A stretch of 64,000 nt of DNA from Oceanococcus sp. HetDA_MAG_MS8. GTDB taxonomy: Bacteria; Pseudomonadota; Gammaproteobacteria; Nevskiales; Oceanococcaceae. The stretch spans positions 434,001 through 498,000 of the forward strand of contig JAHCMK010000003.1 in the NCBI GenBank assembly GCA_019192445.1. Direction: 5' to 3'. The notes beneath the pieces were generated by a model. That model saw only the letters and a program-made list of their open reading frames with translations. It was not told the DNA's origin and made no database searches. The position numbers and the translations under genes are program-made. Shown one piece after another: positions 56,580 through 59,082 of the stretch (positions within the stretch are counted from its first letter, which is position 1; every line of letters starts with the position of its first letter).

Positions 56580-56609
56580 TCCATGCCCCGAACAAACAAG
56601 GACAACCCT

Positions 56610-57974
56610 ATGTTGATATCTGATCACTTGCGGCGGCTGGCGTTGATGCTCGCTGCCACTAGCCTGCCGGCCCTGGCCGCCGTCCCCGCCGAAGAGGCTG
56701 CACGTCTCGGCAAAGATCTCACCCCCGTTGGCGCTGAGCGCGCCGCCAATGCCGAGGGGAGTATTCCAGCCTGGACCGGCGGCTATGACAAAATTCCAGC
56801 CGGCTTTAAGCCCGGTGGGCATTACCCCAACCCCTTCGCGGATGACGAGCCTCTGTTTGTCATCGATGCCAGCAACTATAAGCAGTACGCCGACAAGCTC
56901 AGTCCGGGGCAGATCGCCCTCTTCGAGCGTTATCCGGACACGCGCAAAATGAAGGTGTATCGCACCCGGCGTAGTGCGCGTTATCCGCAGGGGATTTATG
57001 ACGAGACACGCGCCAACGCCACCAAGGTAGAGCTGGTGGACGGCGGGAATGGCTTTCGCGGCACCTCTGGCGGCTATCCCTTCCCGATTCCACAAGATGG
57101 CGTCGAAGCGATCTGGAATCACCTGACGGTGTACAAGGGCGATACCTATGCCACCAGCTGGGCCCAGGCCCCGGTGACGGCTAATGGGGATTACAACCTC
57201 GTCACCTTCGATTACGAATACGACTTCGTCTATGGGCACCAGGGCAAGCGCCCGGAAGAGCGTCAGGACAACCTGCTGTTCTATTTCTTGCAGGCGGTCA
57301 CCGGGCCCGCTCGTCTGGCCGGCTCGATCTTGCTGGTTTACGACTATGCGGATCAGGTGGCTCAGCAACGTAAGGCCTGGGTCTACAACCCCGGTGCCCG
57401 CCGGGTGCGCCTGGCTCCAAACGTGGCTTATGACAACCCCGGGACGGCTTCAGATGGGCTGCGCACCAACGATGATTTTTTCATGTTCAATGGTGCCACC
57501 GACCGCTACAACTGGGAGCTCGTTGGTAAAAAGGAGATGTACATCCCCTACAACGGCTACAAGATCAATGGCCCCGATCTGAAGTTGTCGGATGTGCTCA
57601 CGCCTGGACATGTGAATTCCGAGCATGCTCGTTATGAACTGCATCGGGTCTGGCATGTGCGGGCCACCTTGAAGAAGGGCACCAGCCACATCTACAAGAC
57701 CCGTGACTTTTTCCTGGATGAAGACAGCTTCGTGGTGCATGTCACCGACAAATACGACAACCGCGACAGCCTCTGGCGGGTGTCCGAGCAACATAGCTAT
57801 TTGTACTACGACGTGCCCTTCCTGGCGCCGGGGCTGGAGGTGCACCATGACCTCAACGCCGGACGCTACGTGGCGCTGTCGCTGCGTAACGAGGAAAACA
57901 TCGTCTACAAGCCGATTGAGCGCGAGCCATCGGACTTTCGTCCGGACGCGCTAAGAATGCGCGGGCGTCGTTAA
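56610..57974 (+). CDS. DUF1329 family exported protein
   Basis: A 454-residue periplasmic or outer-membrane-associated protein. I chose ATG 56610 because it has AAGGA nine bases upstream and starts a proper signal peptide (cleavage near ALA-AV); an ATG 27 bases earlier lacks both. Family features: AARLGKDLTPVGAERAANA after the signal, and WVYNPGARRVRLAPNVAYD. The fold of this family resembles the LolA/LolB lipoprotein carriers, so lipid handling is plausible. Ends just before a strong terminator. Confidence 0.92.
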   Translation: MLISDHLRRLALMLAATSLPALAAVPAEEAARLGKDLTPVGAERAANAEGSIPAWTGGYDKIPAGFKPGGHYPNPFADDEPLFVIDASNYKQYADKLSPGQIALFERYPDTRKMKVYRTRRSARYPQGIYDETRANATKVELVDGGNGFRGTSGGYPFPIPQDGVEAIWNHLTVYKGDTYATSWAQAPVTANGDYNLVTFDYEYDFVYGHQGKRPEERQDNLLFYFLQAVTGPARLAGSILLVYDYADQVAQQRKAWVYNPGARRVRLAPNVAYDNPGTASDGLRTNDDFFMFNGATDRYNWELVGKKEMYIPYNGYKINGPDLKLSDVLTPGHVNSEHARYELHRVWHVRATLKKGTSHIYKTRDFFLDEDSFVVHVTDKYDNRDSLWRVSEQHSYLYYDVPFLAPGLEVHHDLNAGRYVALSLRNEENIVYKPIEREPSDFRPDALRMRGRR

Positions 57975-57991
57975 TCGCTCCCTGCGAAGAC

Positions 57992-58019
57992 AAGCCGGCC
58001 TGCGGGCCGGCTTTTTTTT
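57992..58019 (+). terminator. Rho-independent terminator of the DUF1302-DUF1329 operon
   Basis: AAGCCGGCC pairs with GGCCGGCTT (9 bp) around TGCG, followed by an eight-base T run. Confidence 0.93.
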
Positions 58020-58464
58020 GATTATTTGTGCGGGTATTGCGTTTCTCCCACCTCTATCGAGGGGAGTGGAAGCTGTGGGCGGCCAGGACGGGTGTTTCTC
58101 AGGCCGGTAACGGAGGTTGAAGGCATGTTGGCCCATTAGGACCGCTGTCCTCCGCGCCGCTTCGCGGTCCCCTCCGGCGCCTTGCGCTTGGTGTGGCCGG
58201 CTTGACGCGACGTCGTGTCGCGGCAAGCCTCAATCGGCCGTCCGTGGCCGATTGACCACAGTCACTCCAGGCACCGGAGGCGCGCCGGAATGCGGCCCTA
58301 ACGGGCCAACATGCCTCTAACCCACGAGCCGAGAAACGCTGGCCCCTCCGTCGATGCCGGGTTTAACGCTAACTCCACTGTCTGTCGAGGACGCGGATGC
58401 AGACTCAAACAGCCATCTCGGGCGAACCCAGTCCAAGATCCTGCTGCATAGCGAAGCATCTTTT
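58020..58464. other. 445-bp gene-free region holding a multi-hairpin element
   Basis: No convincing coding sequence. Its central half (58115-58322) is the nested inverted-repeat element listed separately. The flanks (58020-58114 and 58323-58464) show nothing I can name. The right flank lies downstream of the DUF938 gene, which runs leftward. Confidence 0.6.
58115..58322. repeat. 208-bp nested multi-hairpin element (MITE-like or structured RNA)
   Basis: Outer arms 58115-58140 and 58297-58322 match as inverted repeats at 23 of 26 positions, and the outer mismatches include G-T wobbles. Inside are GGACCGC/GCGGTCC (58139-58145 with 58164-58170), CCTCCGGCGCC with GGCACCGGAGG (58171-58181 with 58270-58280), a 13-bp hairpin at 58199-58229 with one mismatch, and a perfect 9-bp hairpin CAATCGGCC/GGCCGATTG at 58231-58254. 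Together they fold as a closed multi-branch structure. No clear target-site duplication or known family. Confidence 0.7.
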
Positions 58465-59082
58465 CTATGCCCCTGCGCTTTGGAAATGCAGCAAAAGATT
58501 ATTAGCCGGCATGGGTATCACTTCGGCCAGGTCCAGTCCGGCGTCTTGGGCCAGTTCCGACACTTGGCTCAGCTTACGCAATCCCATGGCCGGGTCTTGT
58601 GCTTTGAGCTGTGCATCAAAGGCGAGATTGGAGGGGCTGGTGGGGGCATCCTCACGCACGAAGGGGCCATAGACCAGCAGCCCTCGGTTCAACTGCAAAT
58701 GGGTCTTCAAGCCCGCAAAGGTGGCCTGGACCTGCTCCCAGGACATGATGTGAAAGGTGTTGGCGGTGTACACCCAGTCCACATCCGCGGGCAGGGCGGT
58801 CCAATGCTCGGCATGGTCTACATCCCAGGGTAATGCTGGTGGAGTGTTACGACCGGGATTCTGCGCCAGCCAGGCCGCGATGCCGGATAGGGCCGATGGC
58901 CGATCGGCGGCCTGCCACAACCATTCAGGCTGCTGGGTTGCGAAGTACAGTGCATGCTGTCCGGTGCCTGAACCCAGTTCCAGAAAGTGCTGCTGACCGG
59001 CGCCGCAGATGCGCAGCAGCTCGGTATGGATGACCGATTTGTTGCGCTCGCAGGCCGGAGAAAAGGGCGGGTTCATGGGCAT
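58465..59082 (-). CDS. DUF938 SAM-dependent methyltransferase-like protein
   Basis: A 205-residue protein of the DUF938 family with a class I SAM fold: ELGSGTGQHALYFA (motif I), DRP in place of an acidic strand-2 end, WVYTANTFHIMSW (motif IV region) and GLLVYGPF. The substrate is unknown. A second ATG two codons in (59076) is an equal start. It lies downstream of the kinase-fusion gene on the same strand, 85 bp away. Confidence 0.88.
   Translation of the reverse strand: MPMNPPFSPACERNKSVIHTELLRICGAGQQHFLELGSGTGQHALYFATQQPEWLWQAADRPSALSGIAAWLAQNPGRNTPPALPWDVDHAEHWTALPADVDWVYTANTFHIMSWEQVQATFAGLKTHLQLNRGLLVYGPFVREDAPTSPSNLAFDAQLKAQDPAMGLRKLSQVSELAQDAGLDLAEVIPMPANNLLLHFQSAGA

Follow-up and report, generated by a model that had tools for sequence, protein, structure and literature searches.

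The window, a 64,000-nucleotide stretch of the Oceanococcus sp. HetDA_MAG_MS8 genome, carries on its minus strand an element that, judged by its covariance-model match, is a member of the TwoAYGGAY RNA family (Rfam RF01731) with a longer outer stem. We read it, with a probability of about one half, as one copy of a dispersed REP-like repeat whose minus strand would be kept as TwoAYGGAY RNA, the copies together forming a putative sink for CsrA. The family is present in many copies, covaries in its stems, shows a strand asymmetry, is paired divergently and lies mostly between genes. TwoAYGGAY was described in 2010 and no function was found for it in the literature on the motif. Rfam gives RF01731 the type 'Cis-reg', while a table in the accessible part of PMC2864571 lists the motif as probably RNA and probably not cis-regulatory, with occurrences in the human gut, gamma-Proteobacteria and Clostridiales.

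Folding of positions 58095-58340 gave a minimum free energy of -161.4 kcal/mol on the minus strand (z = -10.7 against dinucleotide shuffles) and of -143.6 kcal/mol on the plus strand (z = -8.2), and none of 200 shuffles folded as well on either strand. This confirmed that the cluster of nested, non-crossing hairpins, which the initial annotation had placed at 58115-58322 between a terminator and a methyltransferase gene, is real and not due to chance, with the minus strand being the better fold; the core, the limits of which were set by a covariance model (R1) of the own-genome family, lies slightly inside that interval at 58120-58317. On the minus strand the fold of this 198-nt core starts with 26 consecutive nested pairs, corresponding to the 26-bp imperfect outer inverted repeat described previously, while the interior is formed of an inner stem, a three-way junction and two apical hairpins with loops ACGGAC and ACGAC (Table 1). 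R1, which was built from 17 own-genome copies with the window copy among them, scored the site at 205.1 bits on the minus and 43.7 bits on the plus strand. The G-T wobbles that had been pointed out in the outer stem are G-U pairs when read on the minus strand, but on the plus strand they become A-C mismatches. In the interval 57900-58700 we found neither a sigma-70-like promoter nor a terminator-like site between the DUF938 gene and the element, and when the element itself was considered as a Rho-independent terminator, only the separate site downstream of the DUF1329 gene scored.

Table 1. Features of the element and its flanks in the window.
Feature	Position	Strand	Basis
Element core (long outer stem, inner stem, three-way junction, two apical hairpins)	58120-58317	minus	own-genome covariance model R1 and fold
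Rfam RF01731 TwoAYGGAY match	58156-58301	minus	55.7 bits
Outer stem (outer repeat, helix 1), 5' arm	58292-58315	minus	compensatory changes in 22 of 24 pairs, 17 copies
Outer stem (helix 1), 3' arm	58122-58145	minus	covariation and fold
Apical hairpin 1, hexaloop ACGGAC at 58240-58245, C-G closing pair	58231-58254	minus	loop parse and fold
Apical hairpin 2, pentaloop ACGAC at 58212-58216, CGA, without GGA	58200-58228	minus	loop parse and fold
DUF1329 gene terminator-like site (Rho-independent), located 3' of the element	57992-58019	plus	
Flanking DUF1329 gene, convergent, 3' side of the RNA	56583-57974	plus	
Flanking DUF938 gene, methyltransferase-like; read-through gives the element in sense	58465-59082	minus	

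The RF01731 match lies well above the gathering score of 43 bits (E = 2.6e-8). The family is expected to display AYGGAY loops twice, and in the window the first loop, ACGGAC, fits this while the second is ACGAC; other own-genome copies have AGGAN. We parsed the loops of 80 copies (17 from the own genome, 34 from the related genome G036, 17 from Clostridia and 12 from elsewhere in the order and family), which had partly been picked by models or patterns that include the loop, and excluded the Pseudomonas copies because their search pattern itself contains the loops. This yielded 149 apical A..GA. loops, with GGA in 135, ACGAN in 13 and ATAGAA in one. At least one GGA loop was present in 78 of the 80 copies and two in 57, while only a single hairpin was parsed in 11. 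Most of the parsed loops have the form A(N)GGAX, and so would belong to the CsrA/RsmE type of site.

Covariation, which had been proposed as a check on the fold, was clearly present. Among the 17 distinct own-genome copies 95.2% of 1114 cells were paired and 36 of 66 pairs showed double compensatory changes, compared with only 7-13 compensatory pairs in slid-structure controls, and no shuffle of 500 reached any of the five covariation measures, although the structure was derived from the same alignment and is somewhat favoured by this. The strand was assigned from those pairs, predicted on one strand or the other, in which 60% or more of the cells are Watson-Crick, by comparing the number of G-U with that of A-C, which is how the same change appears on the complementary strand. 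By cells, which are not independent, the ratios were 40:18 in the own genome, 25:0 in G036, 87:33 in Pseudomonas, 14:2 in G001 and 25:8 in G002 and G003 together; by pairs, they were 25:12 in the own genome, 7:0 in G036 and 19:16 in Pseudomonas, where the case is weak on this count and the alignment is gappy. As G-U exceeds A-C in all five sets, the folded strand is the TwoAYGGAY strand. The suggestion of a structured RNA in the initial annotation is therefore well supported by the Rfam match, the covariation and the G-U asymmetry. Pseudomonas copies have an extra 3' domain containing an H-type pseudoknot, the first stem of which covaries in register, with a mean of 4.8 pairs formed with its own partner strand against 2.3 with the strands of other types (54 copies, 23 distinct, with no stem found in three). 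By eye, the G036 copies contain a similar 3' domain.

BLAST of the 3.53-Mb own genome returned 21 places, made up of 17 aligned copies, two places where the arms of the element match each other, and two partial matches (L018 and L019), which we dropped because the model did not confirm them; in the flank of the second lies the 6S RNA of the window's genome (L019:2679-2861, 88.6 bits). RF01731 alone detected 14 own-genome copies above its cut-off. R1 gave 32 rows, corresponding to 18 strong sites, two short weak sites and 12 weak rows in which these palindromic sites are matched on their other strand, so that a search for other copies of the element, as had been advised, produced 18 strong and two short sites. 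Three copies (L004, L007 and L009) have in common a longer unit of 492-505 bp with 83-92% identity, and since their flanks are unrelated, a defined unit appears to have been copied to new places. The full-length units of L007 and L009 border immediately on seven consecutive A, with a GC hairpin next in L007, as in a terminator of the opposite strand, and sites next to terminators may be favoured for insertion.

A tree of 39 copies drawn from four related genomes, with several long branches flagged, placed the 18 own-genome rows in two groups (14 and 4), a degree of clustering that exceeded all 500 label shuffles; five of the six G002 rows had a G003 sister, one of these five joining on long branches. 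Read from the tree, this pattern is one of probable amplification in the lineage of the own genome and retention in that of G002 and G003. Five of the nine matches in G003 (C96, C6, C63, C55 and C27) are positioned within ~400 bases of a contig end, which suggests that a longer repeat adjoins them.

RF01731 matched in 23 of 61 related genomes, the own genome included, with up to 38 matches (in G036) and 19 in G044. A loop-and-stem pattern applied to named genomes led, among the matches listed, to Pseudomonas, Pseudoalteromonas, methanotrophs and Clostridia, with likely chance matches in Corynebacterium, Wolfebacteria, Verrucomicrobiales and actinobacterial records; these enter the 180 sites of the 'named' rows and not the Pseudomonas strand or neighbour counts. 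When 15 genomes selected by pattern were scored with RF01731, eight were carriers with 4 to 47 matches and seven had no match. P. graminis is one of the Pseudomonas carriers. Three methanotrophs and Thiohalomonas lack an Rfam match, yet by eye their pattern matches look real. Within a clostridial family (centre record, Lachnospiraceae) TwoAYGGAY was present in 43 of 299 genomes. Five BLAST queries detected no plasmid copies, although diverged copies would escape them, and phage sequences gave one weak 57-base match. The own-type pattern had no match on viral contigs, and six viral contigs with the loop pattern were rejected, as by eye they represent one near-identical stretch without paired flanks.

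Copies are frequently paired. Among the matches listed there were at least 37 inverted pairs within ~1 kb, and by eye 37 of 37 were divergent and none convergent, with a few close same-strand neighbours also present (for instance in G032, G064 and G241). Likewise, in units with both strands the minus copy preceded the plus copy in 29 of 29 units at Pseudomonas loci, where the units come from few species and are not all independent, in 14 of 14 in G036 and in 3 of 3 in the own genome. Some Pseudomonas loci, such as L116, contain runs of up to seven element pieces, as BLAST matches, and in runs with both strands the minus block came first without exception. In G036 (L039-L058) the close pairs join two unlike halves (types A and B) through a linker; both apical hairpin stems swap whole sequence blocks between copies and the flanks are nearly identical, as if the stems were exchanged or diversified as cassettes.

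With genes called by a simple ORF and GC3 rule instead of annotation, none of 69 Pseudomonas units and none of 20 G036 units were inside an ORF, one of 15 own-genome units overlapped a doubtful ORF, and 15 of the 180 sites in the 'named' rows, which include likely chance matches, were inside one. Flanking genes were convergent at 18 of 47 element-flanking Pseudomonas gene pairs compared with 36 of 187 background pairs of these loci (p = 0.011), and at 6 of 14 in the own genome and 11 of 18 in G036, where the background is too small for a test.

The placement of single copies bears on the reading implied by the Rfam type, namely that the element is a cis-regulatory RNA or a 3' UTR element of the adjacent gene, acting in stability or termination. 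The window copy would fit this, being in sense after the DUF938 gene with no terminator-like site between them. However, single copies between tandem genes numbered 7 in sense and 10 in antisense across three sets, with few cases in each (sense:antisense 4:5 in Pseudomonas, 3:4 in the own genome and 0:1 in G036), and each divergent pair places one copy antisense to each neighbour. We relied on single copies because paired copies force equality in the count of all copies, which likewise showed no orientation preference. The lack of preference among these 17 copies agrees with the accessible table of PMC2864571, where the motif is marked 'probably not' cis-regulatory, and not with the Rfam type, and we consider a cis-regulatory role very improbable.

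The initial annotation had also raised a non-autonomous mobile element, and here the dispersed repeat is established by the 18 strong and two short sites, but mobility we only infer, from copy number, from the 492-505 bp units at unrelated sites and from what looks like lineage-specific amplification. No empty site, target duplication or mover was found; a same-genus relative of the window locus is too distant for an empty-site comparison (48% at the flanking protein), and orthologous Pseudomonas loci each hold elements, but all were fetched for holding one. We rejected RAYT (Y1, PF01797) as the mover, as it had no match in 8 of the 23 carriers, or in 9 if a below-cut-off match in G048 is not counted; the own genome has one match. 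The IS91-type Y2 transposase (PF04986) was rejected too, being present in 7 of 61 genomes of which the own genome is the sole carrier. Nor do wide pairs as a rule contain a transposase: by eye, the gene within L138 is short-chain dehydrogenase-like and that within L182 acetyltransferase-like, while in the clostridial divergent pair L209:1103-4282 Pfam identified both an IS91-type transposase gene and a gene for a GNAT acetyltransferase. Nothing emerged in favour of the third proposal of the initial annotation, a recombination or attachment-like fold, which may be considered less likely.

TwoAYGGAY repeats resemble REP/BIME repeats in their behaviour, and no transposase of their own was found. 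One alternative is that they are simply REP/BIME-like DNA repeats, in which the fold would serve, as a hairpin in single-stranded DNA, their copying by a transposase or replication enzyme, with any binding of RNA or protein being incidental. Such repeats would likewise be dispersed, mostly intergenic, in inverted pairs and amplified by lineage, and the enrichment between convergent genes in Pseudomonas parallels that of P. fluorescens repeats (PMC2718517, available in part), to which the lack of plasmid copies in five BLAST queries can be added. Against this, the tolerance of G-U is strand-specific, as RNA predicts, RAYT has no match in the two richest carriers, G036 and G044, the Y2 transposase occurs in one carrier, and the loop letters are conserved from phylum to phylum, as if recognised by a binder. 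We consider the DNA-hairpin reading doubtful.

A binder is suggested by the loops themselves. According to the accessible text of PMC4005645, a high-affinity RsmE site is a hexaloop ANGGAX placed directly on a stem, is weaker if N is missing, and tolerates variation in N, X and loop length at lower affinity. The window loop ACGGAC on its C-G pair fits this consensus, and other copies vary in N, in X and in loop length, which is 5 or 6. Binding of CsrA by TwoAYGGAY was proposed earlier, as far as the available part of PMC4333381 goes, from motif matches alone. We found CsrA (PF02599) in 152 of the 299 clostridial-family genomes, comprising 42 of the 43 TwoAYGGAY carriers and 110 of the 256 non-carriers (Fisher p = 5e-13, phylogeny not corrected). 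Flagellin was present in 156 of these genomes, including 43 of 43 carriers, and together with CsrA in 151. TwoAYGGAY therefore tracks the motile, CsrA-bearing clostridial set, and because CsrA is almost collinear with flagellin and descent may be shared, the association cannot be pinned on CsrA. CsrA was also detected in 15 of 16 further genomes and in 11 of the 12 of those with Rfam matches (G068 occurs in both sets); G061, G066, G067 and G071, also among the 16, have no Rfam match. G060, which is 91% complete, has 13 TwoAYGGAY copies and no CsrA match. CsrA binding is the best-supported candidate function, at about even odds.

In P. putida KT2440, pull-downs with RsmA, RsmE and RsmI each enriched RNAs of intergenic regions adjoining ISPpu8 or at putative ISPpu8 sites, among them regions downstream of PP_3547 and beside PP_1865, PP_2114 and PP_4318; one region was called a long palindromic region (PMC7937890, accessible part). 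By its description this palindrome would resemble the TwoAYGGAY family, and PMC7937890 is the only source naming ISPpu8 among the matches listed. The element might be a non-autonomous derivative of an insertion sequence such as ISPpu8, or a site where one prefers to insert, these palindromes being its ends or landing sites and Rsm binding serving or restraining it. The intergenic sequences common to ISPpu8 flanks in the same source would suit this, as would the G003 matches at contig ends, which look as if they adjoin longer repeats, and the transposase and acetyltransferase genes enclosed by L209. However, L138 and L182 enclose what by eye are ordinary-looking host genes and five queries revealed no plasmid copies, and we judge this origin unlikely.

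Under the reading we prefer, a dispersed RNA repeat acting as a CsrA sink, read-through transcription (here past the DUF938 gene) would generate an RNA that folds into the long stem, and this would present A(N)GGAX loops, on one apical hairpin or on two, for binding by the CsrA/RsmA dimer. Many copies together would constitute a distributed sink, and each may in addition mark the end of the transcript where it sits. From whichever side transcription enters a divergent pair, the transcript would contain one copy in sense, which would suit the gaps between convergent genes in which pairs collect. The window copy has one good candidate site (ACGGAC) and lacks the second (ACGAC), and the lack of orientation preference among single copies is what a trans-acting sink would allow. 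We tentatively entertain, as a possibility short of even odds, a broader form in which these are cross-phylum selfish or domesticated repeats in strictly divergent pairs that upon read-through become a CsrA sponge, with copy number setting CsrA activity. In this form the repeat would be REP-like and carry an RNA decoy as its cargo.

TwoAYGGAY is recast here as a dispersed, divergently paired repeat with tens of copies in Gammaproteobacteria and Clostridia, which makes the CsrA idea directly testable and offers a link to the unexplained Rsm binding of intergenic RNAs, one a long palindrome, reported in the accessible part of PMC7937890. If true, repeats would buffer a global post-transcriptional regulator, and differences in repeat number would add a new way for strains to vary.

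The element is a confirmed multicopy TwoAYGGAY member with extra architecture. It shares with RF01731 the three-way junction and its two neighbouring apical hairpins, which have A(N)GGAY-type loops (ACGGAC in the window copy, the second loop there being ACGAC), and it scores above the gathering threshold here and in relatives. However, the window family adds a long covarying outer stem and in the own genome its second loop is often degenerate, while copies are numerous, dispersed and divergently paired, and those in Pseudomonas have the covarying 3' pseudoknot domain. None of these features was found in the available parts of the TwoAYGGAY descriptions or in the Rfam label, and among the matches listed from the mostly open literature on TwoAYGGAY, on CsrA and repeats, on repeats of Lysobacter and Xanthomonadaceae, on P. 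fluorescens repeat families and on REPIN/RAYT there was no account of dispersed, divergently paired TwoAYGGAY. Like the CsrA/RsmA-titrating RNAs RsmZ, RsmY and CsrB and, in the accessible text of PMC4894983, the Campylobacter flaA leader, the element has A(N)GGAX loops placed directly on stems, with two sites close together, but it occurs as dozens of dispersed repeats with one or two sites per copy, unlike single regulated sRNA genes with many.

With REP, BIME and REPIN sequences it shares dispersed intergenic palindromes, inverted pairs, a bias towards convergent genes and lineage-specific amplification, and differs in its 200-500 bp length, its RNA-strand-specific fold, the presence of divergent pairs only, and its occurrence without RAYT in some genomes and also in Clostridia. 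By eye, a palindrome that reads GTAG-GGCGG on the opposite strand forms the outer end of many G036 copies (L039-L058 3' flanks). We take this GTAG-type palindrome to resemble the REP motif, and despite it no Y1 transposase match was found in G036. The P. fluorescens repeats R0-R200, compared by description only in the accessible part of PMC2718517, likewise include several folded intergenic repeats with a tail-to-tail gene bias, and R200, at 320 bp and 47 copies in SBW25, is similar to our element in both size and number.
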